Source of the DNA: Streptomyces coelicoflavus
GTDB lineage: Bacteria; Actinomycetota; Actinomycetes; Streptomycetales; Streptomycetaceae
Assembly (NCBI RefSeq): GCF_003112555.1
Contig: NZ_BEWB01000010.1
Coordinates: 62,001-126,000, forward strand
DNA: 64,000 nucleotides
Direction of reading: 5' to 3'
The notes under the pieces were generated by a model. That model was given only the letters and a program-made list of their open reading frames with translations. It ran no database searches and was not told the DNA's origin. This document shows, one piece after another, positions 17,660 through 44,150 of the stretch (the first letter of the stretch is position 1; each line of letters begins with the position of its first letter). Both the position numbers and the translations under genes were made by a program.

Positions 17660-18289
17660 ATGAGGACCGTGTCCCACGCGACCCCGCTCCGCCGTGCCCC
17701 CGTGCAGCGCCGCAGCGCCGAACGGCTGACCCGGATCCTCGACGCCTGCGCCGACCTCCTCGACGAGGTCGGGTACGACGCCCTGAGCACCCGGGCCGTG
17801 GCGCTGCGCGCGGACGTCCCCATCGGGTCGGTCTACCGCTTCTTCGGCAACAAGCGGCAGATGGCCGACGCCCTGGCCCAGCGCAACCTGGAACGCTACG
17901 TGGAACGCGTGACCGAACGGCTGACGGAGACGGACTCGGGTCCGGACGGCGGCGGCTGGCGTGCCGCGCTGGACGCCGTGCTCGACGAGTACCTCGCGAT
18001 GAAGCGGACCGCGCCCGGCTTCTCCCTGATCGACTTCGGCAACCAGATCCCGGTCGGCGACCGCCACGCCGTCCCCAACCACCGCGTCGCCGAGCGGCTC
18101 ACCGAGCTGCTCTCCGGCTACCTGGGCCGCCGCCCCGACGAAGACATGCGCCGCGTCTTCCTCGTCGCCGTGGAGACCGCCGACACCCTCGTGCAGCTCG
18201 CCTTCCGGGTCGCACCGGACGGGGACGAGAAGATCATCGAGGAGGCCCGGGAGCTGCTGCGGGCGTATCTGGGACGCGTACTCGACTGA
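17660..18289 (+). CDS. TetR family regulator
   Basis: A 209-residue TetR protein. The helix-turn-helix spans [20 protein letters not shown] to [19 protein letters not shown] (about residues 19-64). The C-terminal ligand domain is of a general type ([21 protein letters not shown]). The start may be ATG 17660 or GTG 17669. It lies directly upstream of the molybdenum oxidoreductase gene in the same direction, and a palindrome (18343-18360) lies between them, so it probably controls that gene. Confidence 0.83.
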
Positions 18290-18342
18290 CGGAACGGGGC
18301 GCCCGGCGACGTCCAGGCGTCCGGCCGACCCCTCCCCAACAT

Positions 18343-18360
18343 GCGTACCGGTCGGTATGC
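18343..18360. promoter_or_regulatory. Probable TetR operator before the molybdenum oxidoreductase gene
   Basis: GCgTACCG-GT-CGGTAtGC is an 18-bp palindrome with one mismatched pair. It lies 42 bp before the GTG start. The TACCG/CGGTA half-sites resemble sites used by TetR regulators of acyl-CoA and related genes. The upstream TetR gene is the obvious candidate binder. Confidence 0.55.
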
Positions 18361-35913: not shown

Positions 35914-38724
35914 ATGCCACGGCGCACCCCACGCAACGCCCTCGACAGACTGAGAACTCCCCGCGGCTTCCACGGGTTCCTGAAGACCGCATCCGTATGC
36001 GCGCTCATTGCCGGAGTTTTGTCACCGCTTTCCCCGGCGATGGCCGCCGAGACCGCGTCCACCGAGGTCACGGCCGCCCAAGCGGCCCCCAACGACCACT
36101 GCGGCGGCCAGTGTTCCGACATCCTGCCGCCCGGCCAGAACGGCAACGCCACCCTCGCCCAGATCCTCCTCAACCAGGCGTTCGGCACCCAGCCCGCGCA
36201 CGCCGAGGACCAGCTCGGCCCCTACGCGAACCTCGCCACCGGCTACAAGGGCCTCACCAACGACAAGATCAACGACTTCTTCAACGACGCCTCCTTCGGC
36301 GTCCCGGACGGCCAGGCCGCCTCCACCGTCCGCCCCGCCGGACGCGACGACGTGACCATCGTCCGCGACAAGAGGACCGGTGTGCCGCACATCACCGGCA
36401 CCACCCGCTACGGCACCGAGTTCGGCGCGGGCTACGCGGCCGCACAGGACCGGCTCTGGCTGATGGACCTCTTCCGGCACGTCGGACGCGGCCAGTTGAC
36501 CCCCTTCGCCGGCGGCGCCCCCGCCAACCAGGGCCTGGAACAGCAGTTCTGGCGCAGCGCCCCCTACACCGAGGCCGACCTGGAGGCGCAGATCGAGAGC
36601 GCCGCCGCCAAGGCCGGGGAGCGCGGCGAGCTGGCCCTGGCCGACGTGGACGCCTACGTCGCCGGTGTCAACGCCTACATCGACGCCTCCGACAAGGGCC
36701 GCTACTTCCCCGGCGAGTACGTCCTGACCGGACACAAGGACGCCATCACCAACGCCGGCACCATCGAGCACTTCAAGCGGTCCGACCTGATCGCCCTGGC
36801 CTCCGTCATCGGCTCCCTCTTCGGCGCCGGAGGCGGCGGCGAGGTCACCAACGCGCTCTCCCTCCTCGCCGCCCAGGAGAAGTACGGCGTCGCCGAGGGC
36901 ACCGAGGTCTGGGAGTCCTTCCGCCAGCGCAACGACCCCGAGGCCGTCCTCACCCAGCAGGACGGCAGCTTCCCGTACCTGCCCACCCCGGACGACCCGC
37001 AGGGCCGCGCCCTGCCCGACGCCGGCTCGGTCGAGGCGGAACCGCTGGTGTACGACCGTACGGGCAGCGCGGGTGCGGCGAGTGCGACCGGTGCCTCCGC
37101 GAAGGCGGCGGACGCGGCCGTGTCCTCGGCGCGGCGCGGCATGTCCAACGCCCTCGTCGTCAGCGGCGAGCACACCGCGAGCGGCCACCCGGTCGCCGTC
37201 TTCGGACCGCAGACCGGCTACTTCGCCCCGCAACTGCTCATGCTCCAGGAGATCCAGGGCCCCGGCATCAGCGCCCGCGGCGCCTCCTTCGCGGGCCTGA
37301 GCATGTACGTCGAACTCGGCCGAGGCCAGGACTACGCCTGGAGCGCGACCACCTCCGGCCAGGACATCATCGACACCTACGCGGTCGAGCTGTGCCAGGA
37401 CGACTACCACTACCTCTACCGCGGCACCTGCACGCCCATGGAGAAGGTAGAGCGGCACAACGCCTGGAAGCCGACCGTCGCCGACTCCACCGCCGCAGGC
37501 TCCTACACGATGCGCGTCTGGCGCACCAAGTACGGCCCCGTCGAGTCCCGCGCCACGGTCGACGGCAAGAAGGTCGCCTACACCACCCTGCGCTCCTCCT
37601 ACCTCCACGAGGCCGACTCCATCATCGGCTTCCAGATGCTGAACGACCCGGACTACCTCAACAGCCCGGAGCGCTTCCAGGAAGCCGTCCAGCACATCAA
37701 CTACACCTTCAACTGGTTCTACGCCGACTCCGAGCACACCGCGTACTACAACAGCGGCGACAACCCGGTACGGGCGGGCGGCGTCGACGCCGAGTTCCCG
37801 GTCTGGGCCCGGCCGGCGTACGAGTGGCAGGGCTGGGACCCGGCCGGCAACACCGCCCGGTACACCGGCGCGTCCGCCCACCCGCAGTCGGTCGACCAGG
37901 ACTACTACATCTCCTGGAACAACAAGCAGGCCAAGGACTACCCGGCCGCCTCCTGGGGCAACGGCTCCGTCCACCGGGGCAACCTCCTCGACGACCGGGT
38001 GAGGAAACTGGTCGCCGAAGGCGGCGTCACCCGCACCGCGCTGGTCAAGGCCATGGCCGAGGCGGCCCTCGCCGACCTGCGCGCCGAGGACGTCCTGCCC
38101 GACCTGCTGAAGGTGGTCGAGTCCGCGCCGGTGACCGACCCGGCGGCCAAGTCGGCCGTGGACGGGCTGAAGGCGTGGCTGTCGGACGGCGGCGGCCTGC
38201 GCACGGAGACCTCGGCGGGATCCAGGAAGTACGCGCACGCCGACGCGATCCGCACCCTGGACGCCTGGTGGCCGCTGCTGGTGAAGGCCGAGTTCGAACC
38301 CGGCCTCGGCACCGACCTGTACACCGCCTTCACCCGCAACCTGCCCGTCGACGAGTCACCGTCCGCCGCCCACGGCCCGACCGGCGCCCACGCCGGCAGC
38401 GCCTTCCAGTACGGCTGGTGGAGCTATGTCGACAAGGACATCCGGTCCGTGCTCGGTGAGTCCGTCAAGGGCCCGCTGGCACACACCTACTGCGGCGACG
38501 GCGACCTCGCCGCCTGCCGGGACACCCTGGTCTCCACCCTGAAGGAGGCGGCGGGCCGCACGGCCGCCCAGGTCTATCCCGGCGACGACAGCTGCTCGGC
38601 CGGGGACCAGTGGTGCGCCGACTCGGTGATCCACCGCACCCTCGGAGGCATCAAGCACGGCGGCATCAGCTGGCAGAACCGGCCGACCTACCAGCAGGTC
38701 GTGGAGTTCACCTCCCACCGGTGA
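35914..38724 (+). CDS. Secreted penicillin acylase family Ntn hydrolase
   Basis: A 936-residue exported amide hydrolase precursor. Residues 1-45 are a long signal peptide ending SPAMAA. The alpha chain covers residues up to Met410 and includes the family block GAGYAAAQDRLWLMDLFRHVGRGQL. Cleavage before Ser411 (RRGM then SNALVVSGEHTASG) would create the N-terminal nucleophile of the beta chain. GYFAPQLLMLQEIQGPGI and FNWFYADSEHTAYYNSGD are further conserved blocks. Relatives deacylate penicillins, acyl-homoserine lactones or lipopeptides such as aculeacin. The substrate here is unknown. GGGAGGAG precedes the start. Confidence 0.9.
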   Translation: MPRRTPRNALDRLRTPRGFHGFLKTASVCALIAGVLSPLSPAMAAETASTEVTAAQAAPNDHCGGQCSDILPPGQNGNATLAQILLNQAFGTQPAHAEDQLGPYANLATGYKGLTNDKINDFFNDASFGVPDGQAASTVRPAGRDDVTIVRDKRTGVPHITGTTRYGTEFGAGYAAAQDRLWLMDLFRHVGRGQLTPFAGGAPANQGLEQQFWRSAPYTEADLEAQIESAAAKAGERGELALADVDAYVAGVNAYIDASDKGRYFPGEYVLTGHKDAITNAGTIEHFKRSDLIALASVIGSLFGAGGGGEVTNALSLLAAQEKYGVAEGTEVWESFRQRNDPEAVLTQQDGSFPYLPTPDDPQGRALPDAGSVEAEPLVYDRTGSAGAASATGASAKAADAAVSSARRGMSNALVVSGEHTASGHPVAVFGPQTGYFAPQLLMLQEIQGPGISARGASFAGLSMYVELGRGQDYAWSATTSGQDIIDTYAVELCQDDYHYLYRGTCTPMEKVERHNAWKPTVADSTAAGSYTMRVWRTKYGPVESRATVDGKKVAYTTLRSSYLHEADSIIGFQMLNDPDYLNSPERFQEAVQHINYTFNWFYADSEHTAYYNSGDNPVRAGGVDAEFPVWARPAYEWQGWDPAGNTARYTGASAHPQSVDQDYYISWNNKQAKDYPAASWGNGSVHRGNLLDDRVRKLVAEGGVTRTALVKAMAEAALADLRAEDVLPDLLKVVESAPVTDPAAKSAVDGLKAWLSDGGGLRTETSAGSRKYAHADAIRTLDAWWPLLVKAEFEPGLGTDLYTAFTRNLPVDESPSAAHGPTGAHAGSAFQYGWWSYVDKDIRSVLGESVKGPLAHTYCGDGDLAACRDTLVSTLKEAAGRTAAQVYPGDDSCSAGDQWCADSVIHRTLGGIKHGGISWQNRPTYQQVVEFTSHR

Positions 38725-38740
38725 CCGGCCGGTACAGCGG

Positions 38741-40003
38741 TCACCTGTAGAGCAGGTACTGGCGGCGCGTCCTGCGGAACGCCGCCAGTTCCCGCTCCCA
38801 GCCGTGCACCACCTCGTCGGTGTCCGCGCCCGCGTCGATCATCGTGCGCACCTGCGTGGACCCGGTGAGCTTGTCGATCCAGTGGTCCGACCGCCAGGCG
38901 AAGCCGTCCCAGGTCCGCCTGGCGGTCACCAGCAGCGCGATCCCGGTGCGCACCGGGTCGAACGCGGCCCGGTCGTGCACGTGGAGCTGCACACCGCCGA
39001 CGGTCCTGCCCGCGAACTTGGAGAAGGTGGGCGCGAAGTACGCCTCCCTGAACCGCACACCCGGCAGCCCGACCTCGTTCGCGGCGGCGGCCCAGCCCCC
39101 GTCGACGCCCTCCGCGCCCAGCAGTTCGAACGGGCGGGTCGTACCGCGCCCCTCGGAGAGGTTCGTGCCCTCGAACAGACAGGTCCCCGAGTACACCAGC
39201 GCACACTCCGGCGTCGGCATGTTCGGGCTCGGCGGCACCCAGGGCAGCCCGGAGACGTCGTAGAACTCGGAGCGCTTCCAGCCCGTCATCGTCACCGTCT
39301 CCAGCGGCACCGGCGCATCGAGGAACTCGCCGTTGAAGAGCAGCGCCAGCTCGGCGACCGTCATGCCGTGCGCCTGCGCGATCGGCTGCCGGCCGACGAA
39401 GGTGGCGAACTCCTTGTGCAGGACCGGGCCGAGGGCCGCCCGCCCGGTCACCGGGTTCGGCCGGTCCAGGACCACGAACCGCTTCCCCGCGAGCGAGGCC
39501 GCCTCCATGCAGTCGAACAGGGTCCAGATGTACGTGTAGAAGCGCGCGCCCACGTCCTGGATGTCGAAGACGACGGTGTCCACGCCGGACGCCGTGAACA
39601 CGTCGGCGAGGGGCTGCCCGCTCTTCAGGTACGTGTCGTAGACGGGCAGTCCCGTCGCGGGGTCGTCGTAGCGCCCTTCGGAGCCGCCCGCCTGCGCCGT
39701 GCCGCGGAAGCCGTGCTCGGGCCCGAAGACGGCGGTCAGGTTCACTCGGTCGTCGGCGTGCATGACGTCGACGATGTGGCGCACGTCGCGGGTGATGCCG
39801 GTCGGGTTGGTGACGATGCCGACCTTCTGCCCGTCGAGCGGGGCGTAGCCGCCGTCGGCGAGGCGCTCGAATCCGGTGCGCAGCCGACGGCCCCCGTGCC
39901 CCGCGGGCGCCGCGTGTGCCGTGCCCGCCGACGCGGCGGCGGCGGTGGTTCCGGCCGCCACCGCGGCCGTCGTGGCGAGCAGATTACGTCTGGACAGCGT
40001 CAT
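38741..40003 (-). CDS. DUF1343/NamZ-type exo-beta-N-acetylmuramidase, Tat-exported
   Basis: A 420-residue glycoside hydrolase of family GH171 (formerly DUF1343), whose characterised member NamZ removes N-acetylmuramic acid from peptidoglycan fragments. The N-terminus MTLSRRNLLATTAAVAAG is a twin-arginine signal. Family blocks are KVGIVTNPTGITRD, VFGPEHGFRG, VFDIQDVGARFYTYIWTL, DRPNPVTG, PPSPNMPTPECALVYSGTC and FEGTNLSEGRGTTRPFELLGA. Export suggests cell-wall turnover or recycling outside the membrane. It starts at 40003 behind GGAGGT. It is convergent with the acylase gene, 16 bases away. Confidence 0.88.
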   Translation of the reverse strand: MTLSRRNLLATTAAVAAGTTAAAASAGTAHAAPAGHGGRRLRTGFERLADGGYAPLDGQKVGIVTNPTGITRDVRHIVDVMHADDRVNLTAVFGPEHGFRGTAQAGGSEGRYDDPATGLPVYDTYLKSGQPLADVFTASGVDTVVFDIQDVGARFYTYIWTLFDCMEAASLAGKRFVVLDRPNPVTGRAALGPVLHKEFATFVGRQPIAQAHGMTVAELALLFNGEFLDAPVPLETVTMTGWKRSEFYDVSGLPWVPPSPNMPTPECALVYSGTCLFEGTNLSEGRGTTRPFELLGAEGVDGGWAAAANEVGLPGVRFREAYFAPTFSKFAGRTVGGVQLHVHDRAAFDPVRTGIALLVTARRTWDGFAWRSDHWIDKLTGSTQVRTMIDAGADTDEVVHGWERELAAFRRTRRQYLLYR

Positions 40004-40109
40004 GCGGTGACCTCCGTGATCGCGGCGGGTGTCATGCGCACGCACGCTAACCCGCACCCCGGGCCGCGGGGAATGGAGTAGACCGCGGTTCGCCTCTTCC
40101 GTCGCACAT

Positions 40110-40123
40110 ACCGACTGGTTAGT
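40110..40123. promoter_or_regulatory. TetR-type operator (ACYRACYRGTYRGT) before the SDR gene
   Basis: ACCGACTGGTTAGT matches the degenerate palindrome ACYRACYRGTYRGT at all 14 positions. It lies 60 bp before the SDR ATG in the interval divergent from the muramidase gene. A near-copy is found before the phosphotransferase/acyl-CoA dehydrogenase operon at 44078-44091. Confidence 0.6.
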
Positions 40124-40183
40124 CTGGCGCTGCCAGGGGAGAGCGAGCAGTGCCCGAGCCGTGTCGCGTGTCGAAGGAGACCG

Positions 40184-40954
40184 ATGGTGGAAGCCGTGCA
40201 GGATGCCGGAGTCGTCGTCACCGGGGCGGGAGGCGGGATCGGGGCCGCGCTGGCCCGCCGCTTCGCCGCCGAGGGAGCCAGGGTCGTCGTCAACGACCTG
40301 GACGCCGACCGGGCGAAGGCCGTCGCCGACGAGATCGGCGGCACAGCGGTCCCCGGCGACGCCTCCGTGATCGTCTCCGAGGCCCGTGACGCGCTGGGCG
40401 GCACGGTCGACGTGTACTGCGCCAACGCGGGCGTCGGCTCCGGCGGCTCGGAGGCCGCGGAGGAGTCCGTCTGGGCGCTCGCCTGGGACGTCAACGTCAT
40501 GGCCCACGTCCGCGCGGCCCACGAACTGCTCCCCGACTGGCTGGAGCGCGGCAGCGGCCGCTTCGTCTCCACCGTGTCGGCCGCCGGACTGCTCACCATG
40601 ATCGGCGCCGCCCCCTACAGCGTCACCAAGCACGGCGCGTACGCCTTCGCCGAGTGGCTGTCCCTGACGTACCGCCACCGCGGGATCAAGGTCCACGCCA
40701 TCTGCCCGCAGGGCGTGCGCACCGACATGCTGGCCGCCACCGGCGGCGCCGGCGACCTGGTGCTCCAGCCCACCGCCATCGAACCGCAGGACGTCGCGGA
40801 CGCCCTGTTCAAGGGCATCGAGGAGGACCGCTTCCTCGTCCTCCCGCACCCCGAGGTCGCCGCGTACTACCAGGCGCGGGCCGCCGACCCCGACCGCTGG
40901 ATGCACGGCATGAACCGGCTCCAGCGGCAGTGGGAGGAATCGACGGCCGGGTGA
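40184..40954 (+). CDS. Short-chain dehydrogenase/reductase
   Basis: A 256-residue SDR. The cofactor motif is TGAGGGIG (residues 13-20), NND-like NAGVG is present at about 80-84, and the catalytic Ser, Tyr and Lys are in VSTVSAAGL and PYSVTKHGAYAF. NDLDADR after strand 2 suggests NAD(H). Its position with acyl-CoA dehydrogenase and phosphotransferase genes and a shared operator suggests a role in a hydroxy- or keto-acyl-CoA pathway, perhaps as the keto reductase that makes or uses a 4-hydroxyacyl-CoA. That role is inferred. Confidence 0.87.
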   Translation: MVEAVQDAGVVVTGAGGGIGAALARRFAAEGARVVVNDLDADRAKAVADEIGGTAVPGDASVIVSEARDALGGTVDVYCANAGVGSGGSEAAEESVWALAWDVNVMAHVRAAHELLPDWLERGSGRFVSTVSAAGLLTMIGAAPYSVTKHGAYAFAEWLSLTYRHRGIKVHAICPQGVRTDMLAATGGAGDLVLQPTAIEPQDVADALFKGIEEDRFLVLPHPEVAAYYQARAADPDRWMHGMNRLQRQWEESTAG

Positions 40955-41042
40955 CCGCCCGGCCCCGTGCCCGCCCGGCGCCCGCCCGCGCCGGGCCGCC
41001 CTGCCCGACGTGCCGGAGCCGGAAAGTGGGAAGATCCTCCGT

Positions 41043-41059
41043 CGGGAACGGCGTTCCCG
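41043..41059. promoter_or_regulatory. Probable autoregulatory TetR operator
   Basis: CGGGAAC-GGC-GTTCCCG is a perfect 7-bp inverted repeat 47 bp before the TetR start. GGAAC-n3-GTTCC palindromes are common operators for TetR proteins. The sequence differs from the ACYRACYRGTYRGT sites, so the TetR protein may recognise only one of the two kinds. Confidence 0.55.
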
Positions 41060-41106
41060 TACGCAGCAGGACACGACAGTGAACGGACAGTGAAACGGAA
41101 AGGCAG

Positions 41107-41709
41107 GTGACGGCAGTGCCCAGGACCACGGACGGGGACGGCACTCCGGTGCCGCAGCGGCTCCTGGCCGCCGCCACCCGGCTCTTCGCCGAGCAGGGCT
41201 ACGACCGCACCTCGGTGCAGGAGATCGTCGAGGCGGCAGGCGTCACCAAGGGGGCGCTCTACCACTACTTCGGCTCCAAGGACGACCTCCTGCACGAGGT
41301 GTACGCGCGCGTGCTGCGCCTCCAGCAGGAACGCCTGGACGCCTTCGCGGACGCCGACGAGCCGGTCGAGAAGCGGGTACGGGACGCGGCGGCCGACGTC
41401 GTCGTCACCACCATCGACAACCTCGACGACGCGTCGATCTTCTTCCGCTCCATGCACCAGCTCAGCCCGGAGAAGAACAAGCAGGTGCGCGCGGAGCGCC
41501 GGCGCTACCACGAACGCTTCCGCGCGCTGATCGAGGAGGGCCAGCGGACCGGCGTCTTCACCAAGGAGACCCCGGCCGACCTGGTGGTGGACTACCACTT
41601 CGGGTCCATCCACCACCTGTCCACCTGGTACCGCCCCGACGGCCCGCTCAGCCCGCAGGAGGTCGCCGACCACCTCGCCGACCTGCTGCTGCGCGCACTG
41701 CGCCCGTGA
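41107..41709 (+). CDS. TetR family regulator of acyl-CoA metabolism genes
   Basis: A 200-residue TetR protein. The helix-turn-helix PQRLLAAATRLFAEQGYDRTSVQEIVEAAGVTKGALYHYF (about residues 16-55) and the C-terminal block FFRSMHQLSPEKNKQVRAERRRYHERF place it in the KstR2/FadR-like TetR_C_17 group, many of which bind acyl-CoA ligands. It starts at GTG 41107. It is flanked by the SDR gene and the ACAD/phosphotransferase operon and probably controls one or both. A palindrome precedes its own gene. Confidence 0.86.
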   Translation: MTAVPRTTDGDGTPVPQRLLAAATRLFAEQGYDRTSVQEIVEAAGVTKGALYHYFGSKDDLLHEVYARVLRLQQERLDAFADADEPVEKRVRDAAADVVVTTIDNLDDASIFFRSMHQLSPEKNKQVRAERRRYHERFRALIEEGQRTGVFTKETPADLVVDYHFGSIHHLSTWYRPDGPLSPQEVADHLADLLLRALRP

Positions 41710-41727
41710 CCCACGCGTGAGGCGACG

Positions 41728-41749
41728 GCCCCCGGGGAGTTCCGGGGGC
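41728..41749. terminator. Bidirectional hairpin between TetR and acyl-CoA dehydrogenase genes
   Basis: GCCCCCGG-GGAGTT-CCGGGGGC is a perfect 8-bp stem in the 50-bp gap between two convergent genes. Confidence 0.7.
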
Positions 41750-41759
41750 GCCGCCCCGC

Positions 41760-42974
41760 TCAGAGGTACTTCTTGATCTCCCGGCGGGCCAGCGAACGCT
41801 GGTGCACCTCGTCCGGGCCGTCGGCGATCATCAGCGTCCGCGCACCCGCGTACAGCTCGGCCAGCGGGAAGTCCTGGCTCACGCCGCCCGCGCCGTGCAG
41901 CTGGATCGCCCGGTCGATGATGTCGACCACCGCGCGGGGCGTGGCGATCTTGATGGCCTGGATCTCGGTGTGCGCGCCCCGGTTGCCGACGGTGTCCATC
42001 AGCCAGGCGGTCTTCAGCACCAGCAGCCGCAGCTGCTCCACGGTGACCCGGGCGTCCGCGATCCAGTTGTGCACCACGCCCTGCTGTGCCAGCGCCTTGC
42101 CGAAGGCCTCGCGGGACACCGCGCGGCGGCACATCAGCTCGATCGCCCGCTCGGCCATGCCGATCAGCCGCATGCAGTGGTGGATGCGGCCGGGACCGAG
42201 CCGCGCCTGGGCGATGGCGAAGCCGCTGCCCTCCTCGCCGATCAGGTTCGACACCGGCACGCGCGCGTGGTCGAAGGTCACCTCGGCGTGGCCGCCGTGG
42301 TAGTGGTCCTCGTAGCCGAAGACCTGCATGGCGCGATTCACCGTCACGCCGGGCGTGTCGCGCGGGACCAGCACCATGGACTGCTGGCGGCGGATGTCCG
42401 CGCCGTCCGGGTCGGTCTTGCCCATCACGATGAAGATCTTGCAGTCCGGGTTCATCGCCCCGGAGATGTACCACTTGCGGCCCGTGACGACGTACTCGTC
42501 ACCCTCGCGCTCGATGTGCGTGGTGATGTTCGTGGCGTCCGAGGAGGCCACGTCCGGCTCGGTCATCGCGAACGCCGAGCGGATCTCACCCGCGAGCAGC
42601 GGCTCCAGCCACTGCTTCCGCTGGGCCTCGTCGGCGAACTGGGCCAGCACCTCCATGTTCCCGGTGTCCGGCGCCGCGCAGTTCGTCGCGGTCGGCGCCA
42701 GCTGCGGGCTGCGGCCGGTGATCTCGGCGAGCGGGGCGTACTGGAGGTTGGTGAGGCCGGCGCCGTGCTCGGCGTCGGGGAGGAAGAGGTTCCACAGGCC
42801 CTGGCGGCGTGCCTCGGCCTTGAGGTCCTCCACGACCTGCGGGGTGTCCCACGGGGAGGCCAGCCGGGCGCGCTGCTCGTGGGCGGTCTGTTCGGCCGGG
42901 TAGACGTACTCGTCCATGAAGGCGAGCAGCCGGGCGCGGAGTTCCTCGGTGCGTGCGTCGTAGGCGAAGTCCAT
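41760..42974 (-). CDS. ACAD10/11-type acyl-CoA dehydrogenase
   Basis: A 404-residue FAD enzyme. FAD and substrate blocks are FAMTEPDVASSDATNI, GRKWYISGAMNPDC, RLGPGRIHHCMRLIGMAERA and QLHGAGGVSQDFPLAELYAGARTL. The end of the active-site region reads ADGPDEVHQRSLAR, the hallmark of the mammalian ACAD10/ACAD11 branch, instead of the YEGT motif of normal acyl-CoA dehydrogenases. The gene begins six bases after the stop of the phosphotransferase gene. In ACAD10/11 the two activities are fused; here they are separate subunits in one operon. Confidence 0.9.
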   Translation of the reverse strand: MDFAYDARTEELRARLLAFMDEYVYPAEQTAHEQRARLASPWDTPQVVEDLKAEARRQGLWNLFLPDAEHGAGLTNLQYAPLAEITGRSPQLAPTATNCAAPDTGNMEVLAQFADEAQRKQWLEPLLAGEIRSAFAMTEPDVASSDATNITTHIEREGDEYVVTGRKWYISGAMNPDCKIFIVMGKTDPDGADIRRQQSMVLVPRDTPGVTVNRAMQVFGYEDHYHGGHAEVTFDHARVPVSNLIGEEGSGFAIAQARLGPGRIHHCMRLIGMAERAIELMCRRAVSREAFGKALAQQGVVHNWIADARVTVEQLRLLVLKTAWLMDTVGNRGAHTEIQAIKIATPRAVVDIIDRAIQLHGAGGVSQDFPLAELYAGARTLMIADGPDEVHQRSLARREIKKYL

Positions 42975-42980
42975 GGCGGG

Positions 42981-44036
42981 TCAGCCCTTCTGGAGGGTGG
43001 TCAGGCCGTGCTCGATGAAGACGGGGACGAGGTCGCCGATGCGGTCGAAGCCGCGGCCGACCGTCTGGCCCAGCGTGTAGCGGTAGTGGATGCCCTCCAG
43101 GATCACGGCGAGCTTGAACCACGCGAACGCCGTGTACCAGGCGACCGCGGTGACGTCGCGCCCCGAGCGGGCGGCGTACCGCTCGATCAGTTCGGCGGGG
43201 GCGGGGTGGCCGGGGGCCTGGGCGGTGGTGGAGACGGGGGAGTCGGGCATGCCGAGCGGGCTGCTGTACATCACCAGCAGGCCGAGGTCGGTCAGCGGGT
43301 CGCCGAGCGTGGACATCTCCCAGTCGAGGATCGCCCTGATCCTGCTTCTCGCGCCGTTCCCGTCGCCGTTCTCGCCGTTCTCGTCACCGATGAGGACGTT
43401 GTCGAGGCGGTAGTCGCCGTGCACGACGGTCGGTGCGGGGGAGCGCGGCAGTTCCCGGCCGAGCGTGGCGTGCAGCTCGTCGATGCCGGCCAGGTCGCGG
43501 TTGCGGGAGGCGTCGAGCTGCTTGGCCCAGCGGCGCAGCTGGCGGTCCAGGAAGCCCTCGGGGCGGCCGAAGTCCGCGAGGCCCACCCGGTCGGGGTCCA
43601 CCGCGTGCAGGTGGACCAGTGTGTCGACGAGGTCCAGCACGGCGGCGCGGGTGCGCTCGGGCCCGAGGGGGGCGAGCTGCTCGGCGGTGCGGTACGGGGT
43701 GCCGTCCACGAACTCCATCACGTAGAACGGTGCCCCCAGCACCTCCTCGTCCTCGCACAGCAGCACCGGGCGCGGCACCGGCACGTCCGTCGGGTGCAGC
43801 GCGCTGATGACGCGGTGCTCGCGCCGCATGTCGTGCGCGGTGGCCAGGACGTGGCCGAGCGGGGGGCGCCGTACCACCCAGCGGGCGGTGCCGTCCGAGA
43901 CGGCGTAGGTGAGGTTCGACCGTCCGCCCTCGATCAGCCGGCCGGACAGCGGACCGGTCACCAGGCCGGGCCGCTCGCGGTCGAGCAGGACGCGCAACCG
44001 GTCGAGATCGAGTCCGGGCGGGTGGTCGGGGCTCAT
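42981..44036 (-). CDS. ACAD11/LvaA-like phosphotransferase (APH fold kinase)
   Basis: A 351-residue kinase-like protein of the aminoglycoside phosphotransferase fold. The catalytic loop is VVHGDYRLDNVLI and the metal motif is ILDWEMSTLGDPLTDLG, nearly identical in pattern to the kinase half of ACAD11 and to Pseudomonas LvaA, which phosphorylates the 4-hydroxyl of 4-hydroxyacyl-CoA. The Gly-rich N-terminal part (LIEGGRSNLTYAV) binds ATP. The start at 44036 (MSPDHPPGLD) is preferred. It is first in an operon with the ACAD gene and has a TetR-type operator in its promoter. An antibiotic-resistance role is unlikely. Confidence 0.9.
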   Translation of the reverse strand: MSPDHPPGLDLDRLRVLLDRERPGLVTGPLSGRLIEGGRSNLTYAVSDGTARWVVRRPPLGHVLATAHDMRREHRVISALHPTDVPVPRPVLLCEDEEVLGAPFYVMEFVDGTPYRTAEQLAPLGPERTRAAVLDLVDTLVHLHAVDPDRVGLADFGRPEGFLDRQLRRWAKQLDASRNRDLAGIDELHATLGRELPRSPAPTVVHGDYRLDNVLIGDENGENGDGNGARSRIRAILDWEMSTLGDPLTDLGLLVMYSSPLGMPDSPVSTTAQAPGHPAPAELIERYAARSGRDVTAVAWYTAFAWFKLAVILEGIHYRYTLGQTVGRGFDRIGDLVPVFIEHGLTTLQKG

Positions 44037-44077
44037 CGGCTCTCCCTGGGGCAGGCGAACAGTACCCGACATATGAT

Positions 44078-44091
44078 GCCGACCGGTCGGT
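44078..44091. promoter_or_regulatory. TetR-type operator before the phosphotransferase/ACAD operon
   Basis: GCCGACCGGTCGGT matches ACYRACYRGTYRGT at 13 of 14 positions and lies in a longer palindrome (AT-G-CCGACCGGTCGG-T-AT). It sits 42 bp before the operon start. It is paired in type with the site at 40110-40123. Confidence 0.65.
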
Positions 44092-44150
44092 ATGCCGTCC
44101 AGTGGGCGGACGGAACGTGATCGGCGTTACGGGCGGGCCGGCGCCGTTCC

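Follow-up and report, generated by a model that had tools for sequence, protein, structure and literature searches.

A 64,000-nucleotide stretch of the Streptomyces coelicoflavus genome (contig NZ_BEWB01000010.1 of assembly GCF_003112555.1, positions 62,001 to 126,000; hereafter the window) contains four genes lying between two matching TetR-type operators. On the plus strand are a short-chain dehydrogenase/reductase (SDR) gene (40184-40954; 256 amino acids, Pfam PF00106 at 1.1e-34, with a YSVTK motif in the translation) and, mid-cluster as the original prediction had it, a TetR-family gene encoding a PfmR-like regulator (41107-41709; 200 amino acids, Pfam PF00440 (TetR_N) and PF17932 (TetR_C_24)). 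On the minus strand are a gene for a phosphotransferase resembling the LvaA/ACAD11-type kinases (42981-44072; 363 amino acids in its longest frame, PF01636 (APH) at 8e-54, motifs HGDYRLDN and ILDWEMSTLGDPL) and, 6 bp downstream of it, a gene for an acyl-coenzyme A (CoA) dehydrogenase (ACAD) resembling the ACAD11/LvaC type (41760-42974; 404 amino acids, motif ADGPDEVH, Pfam acyl-CoA dehydrogenase domains). One operator lies upstream of the SDR gene (40107-40126, beginning CATACCGACTGGTTAGTC) and the other upstream of the kinase-ACAD pair (44075-44094, CATACCGACCGGTCGGCAT); each matches the operator pattern with no mismatch, and neither is assigned a strand. Because the longest kinase frame would open 2 bp from its operator, the true start is probably the ATG at 44036 (codon 13), which is preceded by AGGGAGAG. 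Among the NCBIfam matches listed for the four proteins (for the SDR, the best 25 of 197), none exceeded its cut-off, so the NCBIfam names were left unused. The arrangement had been read as a split ACAD11 plus an SDR under one TetR, and sequence, residues, a tree, the predicted kinase fold, genetic linkage and the regulator all agree with this.

The dehydrogenase is the more securely placed half of the pair. Its top four chains in a search of PDB sequences are those of ACAD11 (8v3u, 8v3v, 2wbi) and 4hr3, at 447-465 bits; mouse ACAD11 8v3u scores 464.5 bits, against 134.5 for the best chain outside this group, and identity to mouse ACAD11 is 55% across 395 aligned residues. Residues R626, H634, R637 and the catalytic D753 distinguish ACAD10, ACAD11 and LvaC and have been tied to the phosphorylated substrate and to catalysis (PMC12440821). 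All four are conserved by alignment in the window protein, as R258, H266, R269 and D385, with the index in the ACAD11 PDB chain being the published number minus one. In a tree of 44 ACADs the window protein fell into one group with mouse ACAD11, separate from 8 other ACADs, and did not cluster with non-ACAD11 families; this was a quick tree in which Thermus and several outgroup sequences sit on long branches, so the positions of those sequences are less sure. The combination of Arg, Arg and Asp at positions 258, 269 and 385 was found in 36 of 36 ACAD11-group sequences and in none of the 8 others, and the same counts hold for Asp in place of Glu at position 385 by itself. The histidine is more variable, H266 being replaced by Tyr in three second-copy Streptomyces sequences and H265 being Thr in the Thermus sequence. 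The window dehydrogenase is of the ACAD11 type, with a predicted role in eliminating phosphate from a 4-phosphoacyl-CoA.

The kinase scored 231 bits against PDB entry 9o56, 171 against 3dxp, and 158 (8v3v) and 155 against mouse ACAD11, to which it is 35% identical. When aligned with ACAD11, the catalytic D220 and N225 are conserved and carry the same numbers in the longest window frame, and the CoA-contacting R176 is conserved as R177. An AlphaFold model built from an eight-row alignment (predicted local distance difference test score 84.4, predicted template modelling score 0.84) was searched with Foldseek; 3dxp came out on top, 25-hydroxysteroid kinase took the next two places and ACAD11 (8v3v) was seventh, with antibiotic kinases making up much of the remaining list. 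Membership of the ACAD11 kinase family, with an APH-type fold, is well supported by homology, and the protein is predicted to be a 4-hydroxyacyl-CoA kinase. The proposal that it represents the second half of ACAD11 is upheld by pairwise scores, identity, residues and predicted fold; its clustering was judged by pairwise scores only, which give an ACAD11-family match with 9o56, rather than ACAD11, as the best solved relative. The substrate of the kinase is less certain than that of the dehydrogenase, since 9o56 is closer than ACAD11 and the fold is shared with other kinases.

Two alternatives bear on this assignment. Membership of the APH family in Pfam would fit an aminoglycoside-resistance kinase situated beside an ordinary fatty acyl-CoA dehydrogenase, the two having no shared pathway. 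This is hardly credible: the NCBIfam antibiotic-kinase models, whose cut-offs are 205 and 390 bits, gave 24.6 bits, ACAD11 gave 158 bits, and the kinase and ACAD genes are adjacent in all 40 Streptomyces relatives that were fetched. The other alternative is that the pair performs the same chemistry on a different CoA ester, such as a branched, steroid-, polyketide- or butyrolactone-derived hydroxyacyl-CoA. The stronger match to 9o56 is consistent with this, as are the close fold of 25-hydroxysteroid kinase, the occurrence of a related pair on a Streptomyces plasmid in a locus that also carries AfsA-domain and ketosynthase genes, and the phenylacetate connections of the operator type and of the name PfmR described below. 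However, all four of the ACAD11 residues tested are conserved, and resemblance to 25-hydroxysteroid kinase is marginal by sequence (29.5 bits) and amounts to about 20% identity in structural alignment; a different ester therefore seems unlikely.

The best solved relative of the TetR protein is 3vpr (95.7 bits), which we take to be PfmR. The window TetR is 35% identical to the TetR of an operon on Thermus thermophilus plasmid pTT27, which corresponds to TTHB023 when matched through the published site coordinates. TTHB023 (PfmR) binds the sites CCTACCGACCGGTCGG and TTTACCGACCGGTTGG with dissociation constants of 0.32 and 0.98 nM (PMC7022988). The two window operators read CATACCGACCGGTCGG and CATACCGACTGGTTAG; that at 44075-44094 is near-identical to CCTACCGACCGGTCGG, while that at 40107-40126 resembles TTTACCGACCGGTTGG. 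The TetR and its TACCGACCGGTCGGT-type operators thus have the character of a PfmR-type regulator with its sites, and binding is predicted from sequence. The pTT27 operon runs TetR, ACAD, hydrolase, SDR, MaoC, thioesterase, short AMP-binding gene, SDR, ACAD and phosphotransferase; genes for a DUF6285 protein and a histidine phosphatase come next. The second ACAD of the operon shares 40% identity with that of the window and carries DGPSEVH and R..HCMR, and its kinase is 28% identical. Upon deletion of pfmR, TTHB015 and TTHB014 rise (log fold change 1.68 and 1.86, adjusted p 0.02) (PMC7022988); by gene order these match the ACAD11-like ACAD and kinase genes. The operator type alone is no proof of substrate, since PaaR of Burkholderia cenocepacia, which governs phenylacetate degradation, has also been tied to ACCGACCGGTCGGT (PMC2770484).

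Both sites had been read as TetR-type operators, and their conservation across relatives confirms this more strongly than their frequency in the window. A pattern search of the window gave 6 matches (3 places, on both strands) at up to 3 mismatches, with 1.55 expected and 0 of 100 shuffles as high; this count is a weak test, as the pattern was drawn from two of the three places. Among the relatives, 36 of 38 have an operator agreeing at 14 or more of the 18 positions of the palindrome upstream of the SDR gene, and 39 of 40 have one upstream of the kinase gene. The misses are L077 upstream of the SDR gene, where the site is degenerate (12/18), and L053 on both sides, where the kinase start falls within a run of N. 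In a second set of 80 named loci found by their TetR, a site with at most 1 mismatch precedes the SDR gene in 76 of 78 and the kinase gene in all 69 judged. In the whole genome of the strain, the only two perfect matches are the cluster's own sites; at up to 2 mismatches there were 18 places, against 11 for a control.

No further regulon gene was found in the strain's own genome, where the two cluster sites are the only matches with zero mismatches. A first, looser regulon pattern was dropped after giving fewer matches than its control (158 vs 215). A one-mismatch site on contig C7 sits between two open reading frames that resemble, by eye, regulator genes. In the window itself, the site at 18342-18359 was rejected as a regulon member, its symmetry resembling TACC-N4-GGTA rather than the TACC-N8-GGTA of the cluster operators; from the sequence it also adjoins another TetR gene (17660-18289). 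This palindrome precedes a molybdopterin oxidoreductase gene by about 45-60 bp, and 29 of 30 loci have it with no more than 3 mismatches, compared with 16 of 600 random stretches from the same loci (30 of the 45 genomes with that oxidoreductase gene were examined). This site is probably the neighbouring TetR's own operator, to judge from its position and sequence.

The SDR gene was expected behind a matching TetR-type site, and the operator at 40107-40126 does lie upstream of it. The protein matches generic SDR families only (Pfam adh_short and the NCBIfam matches listed), and by sequence its best solved match is the (3R)-hydroxyacyl-CoA dehydrogenase 2et6 (108 bits). By analogy with LvaD, the oxidoreductase that deals with the 4-keto group in Pseudomonas (PMC6692424), it is perhaps a 4-keto(acyl-CoA) reductase. 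The generic family matches and the resemblance to 2et6 would suit an enzyme acting later, for example a 3-hydroxyacyl-CoA dehydrogenase working on the hydrated product. In that event the SDR would act after hydration, so the cluster would handle 4-hydroxy acids but no 4-keto acids of the levulinate type, the rest of the explanation remaining compatible. The precedent of LvaD argues against a later role, as do 4 of the 9 second-copy Streptomyces loci, in which an SDR 48-50% identical to that of the window lies close to the ACAD, with a kinase as well in 3 of the 4; a later-acting SDR is a possibility to be taken seriously, if the less probable one.

The cluster is widespread in Streptomyces. 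The ACAD was found at E <= 1e-100 in 58 of 61 genomes, that of the strain included, and gene order was judged in 40 of the 57 ACAD-bearing relatives. SDR, TetR, ACAD and kinase genes occur in the same order and orientation in 38 of these 40, inserted genes being allowed, and the SDR gene is absent in the other 2. The gap between the ACAD and kinase genes is 6-60 bp in all 40, while that between the TetR and ACAD genes, where the arms converge, varies from 70 bp to 4.6 kb; genes have often been inserted between the two arms, for example in L041, L053, L054 and L062. Among the 80 named loci, 8 show no kinase gene, of which 6 are short contigs. The others are L204, whose ACAD is 5.7 kb off, where the stretch ends, and L200, with neither ACAD nor kinase in 12.6 kb. 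A kinase gene lies near the ACAD in 7 of the nine second-copy loci.

Most relatives carry a fifth gene. Of the 38 relatives with an SDR gene, 32 have a ligase gene of about 555 codons between the SDR and TetR genes, the frame of 458 codons in L063 being counted as present. The five-gene set is complete in Streptomyces violaceoruber (L160). The ligase of one relative is an AMP-binding protein scoring 424 bits to the long-chain-fatty-acid--CoA ligase model PRK08314, below its cut-off of 705. The window has a gap of 152 bp in its place. Within that gap, at 41001-41093 on the plus strand, the sequence LPDVPEPESGKILRRERRSRTQ and what follows it up to a stop codon correspond to the C-terminal end of the ligase (tblastn E 3e-7 in the 64-kb window, the next best match being 0.022), and at the DNA level it shares 86% identity over 113 bp with Streptomyces sp. 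WAC 04229 (L148; E 1e-31). Because most relatives carry the gene at this position and its 3' end survives here, the missing ligase of this strain is a deletion rather than an original absence. The earlier statement that the cluster has no acyl-CoA synthetase is literally right, but the remnant shows that the gene was once there. Relocation was considered and rejected, as no orthologue of the lost ligase turned up in the strain's own genome, where its best relative is only 39% identical. Loss is recurrent: the ligase is lost or truncated in 9 of 41 loci, the window included, and on a tree this needs 7 changes, at least 5 of them forced by well-supported branches. Among the named loci, a full-length ligase is present in 55 of 78 judged and lacking in 23; 2 of the 80 were too short to judge.

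The deletion, with its remnant left behind, together with loss of the SDR gene in 2 of 40 relatives, could mean that the cluster is decaying in this strain and no longer works. This is very unlikely. The remaining four genes have open frames and share 89-98% identity with their counterparts in the ligase-bearing L148, the closest relative fetched, and both operators are intact. The TetR, ACAD and kinase genes are kept in all 41 loci (40 of 40 relatives), including 8 relatives with a lost or truncated ligase. Moreover, Pseudomonas putida lacking lvaE is reported to retain growth on levulinate (PMC6692424), so the route may well survive the loss of a ligase. The constant retention of the TetR-ACAD-kinase core alongside repeated ligase loss raises the thought that the substrate may be a self-made 4-hydroxyacyl-CoA, arising inside the cell already as a CoA ester. 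Sources may include breakdown of gamma-butyrolactone-type signals, polyketide by-products or lipid damage. The route would then serve housekeeping or signal recycling instead of the recovery of acids from outside, and TetRs of the PfmR type in different phyla would sense 4-hydroxyacyl-CoAs; we regard this extension as quite doubtful.

Several further loci and neighbouring genes were noted. A second Streptomyces cluster (L080, 1326-15180) contains, in this order, an operator-like site, a ligase, an SDR, an ACAD11-type ACAD, a kinase and a second ligase, the last 59% identical to the type lost in the window. On a plasmid of Streptomyces cathayae (L104, 4247-10250), a kinase, ACAD and SDR copy is flanked by IS3-family transposase genes. 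On a plasmid of Streptomyces sp. NBC_00388 (L147, 4853-13203), a related kinase-ACAD11 pair sits amid ketosynthase, CoA-transferase and HAD hydrolase genes and an AfsA-domain gene (PF03756), in a locus that looks biosynthetic rather than catabolic. Upstream of the window cluster (35914-40003) are a penicillin amidase family gene (plus strand) and a NamZ exo-beta-N-acetylmuramidase family gene (minus strand), and relatives of one or both adjoin the cluster in many of the 40 fetched loci. A histidine phosphatase gene follows the kinase gene both in Thermus pTT27, with DUF6285, and on a Deinococcus plasmid (L134, 2045-4015; L145, 4604-6431), and one stands beside lvaA in P. citronellolis (PMC6692424). 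These neighbours are possible LvaB-like partners or salvage phosphatases.

Beyond Streptomyces, the two proteins tend to occur in the same genomes. Among 149 Actinomycetota genomes, 53 have the ACAD and 61 the kinase, and 49 have both (Fisher p 5e-23, with no correction for relatedness). In six annotated plasmid regions, from Sphingobium, Deinococcus, Methylobacterium, Tsukamurella and two Streptomyces, the two genes are direct neighbours, except in Deinococcus, where a single gene separates them; a seventh, from Rhodococcus, is without annotation.

Taken together, it is likely that the cluster is a Streptomyces form of the lva or ACAD10/11 route, bringing 4-hydroxy (perhaps 4-keto) acids into beta-oxidation, and the reading of the pair as acting on 4-hydroxyacyl-CoA is well supported by sequence. 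In the scheme that we infer, in which every catalytic step, the SDR substrate, the inducer and the chain length are proposals, a CoA ligase would form the acyl-CoA; in this strain that ligase would be encoded elsewhere, as the cluster's own gene is deleted. The SDR would reduce the 4-keto group where present, the kinase would phosphorylate the 4-hydroxyl, and the ACAD11-type dehydrogenase would expel the phosphate by means of Asp385 and FAD, leaving a 2-enoyl-CoA that would enter ordinary beta-oxidation. The PfmR-like TetR would repress both arms through the two operators and would presumably leave them in response to a pathway acyl-CoA or free acid. As to where the acids come from, lipid peroxidation, lactones and biomass are a guess.

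A number of observations weigh against this reading. The kinase stands nearer to 9o56 than to ACAD11, its fold is common to 25-hydroxysteroid kinase and antibiotic kinases, and the published R86 has no Arg at its place in the PDB sequence when the offset that suits the other residues is applied. A gene for LvaB, the 12-kDa partner in the lva system, is missing, the window cluster being filled by its four genes; LvaB is also absent from the P. citronellolis cluster (PMC6692424). Two of the 9 second-copy Streptomyces loci showed no kinase in the vicinity of the ACAD. Across the phylum, 4 of the 53 ACAD-positive genomes gave no kinase match and 12 of the 61 kinase-positive genomes no ACAD match, and outside Streptomyces the ACAD is usually not beside the kinase. 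A kinase gene lay within 1.5 kb in 5 of the only 27 phylum loci scanned for one, one of the 5 being Streptomyces, and coordinates place the two genes within 3 kb in 11 of the 53 ACAD-positive genomes, 4 of them Streptomyces.

What is new here is the genus-wide five-gene form, the recurrent loss of the ligase with a visible remnant, and the link to PfmR. Among the matches listed in a literature search, no title or abstract opening described a Streptomyces kinase-ACAD11 pair, and the cluster is not described in the available portion of a paper on Streptomyces synteny (PMC13118837). A conserved Streptomyces version offers a two-protein system, in a genus with good genetics, for finding the natural substrate, and PfmR, a repressor with the vague label 'phenylacetic acid and fatty acid', becomes linked to 4-hydroxy acid chemistry.

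The nearest functional precedent is found in mammals, where enzymes of 4-hydroxy acid metabolism were reported in 2024 and 2025 (PMC11342911; PMC12440821) and ACAD10 and ACAD11 perform the phosphorylation and elimination steps (PMC12440821; PMC11342911). Function by homology is well founded, since Burkholderia orthologues can replace ACAD10 domains (PMC11342911). The window cluster shares with ACAD10 and ACAD11 the kinase family, an ACAD with an Asp base and an R/H/R pocket, and the same predicted two-step chemistry. It differs in encoding two separate proteins from adjacent genes, the kinase gene first, in being TetR-controlled, and in lacking the HAD domain seen in ACAD10.

Like the lva operon of P. 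putida, the cluster unites kinase, ACAD and SDR genes under regulation, with a CoA ligase in most Streptomyces relatives. The likeness to LvaA and LvaC themselves is taken from the published identities of these proteins to ACAD10 and ACAD11 (PMC11342911). Homologues of lva occur in Alpha-, Beta- and Gammaproteobacteria according to the original lva study as cited in PMC6692424. The lva operon has the sigma54-type regulator LvaR (PMC6692424), whereas the window has a PfmR-like TetR with its own operators; the window cluster is further set apart by its two arms under two operators, by the reduction of the ligase (the role of LvaE) to a remnant, and by having neither LvaF nor LvaG among its four genes. 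With 25-hydroxysteroid kinase (9fsg, 9ft5), which according to the entry titles phosphorylates a lipid hydroxyl, the resemblance is one of kinase fold at low identity, and no steroid genes were seen in the window cluster. The PfmR operon of T. thermophilus has a homologous TetR, near-identical operators, an ACAD11-like ACAD, a kinase, SDRs and a short AMP-binding gene in common with the Streptomyces form. It is, however, a single ten-gene operon with an additional MaoC, thioesterase, hydrolase and second ACAD, its ACAD11-like ACAD and its kinase share 40% and 28% identity with those of the window, and its regulator was named for phenylacetate and fatty-acid metabolism rather than for 4-hydroxy acids.

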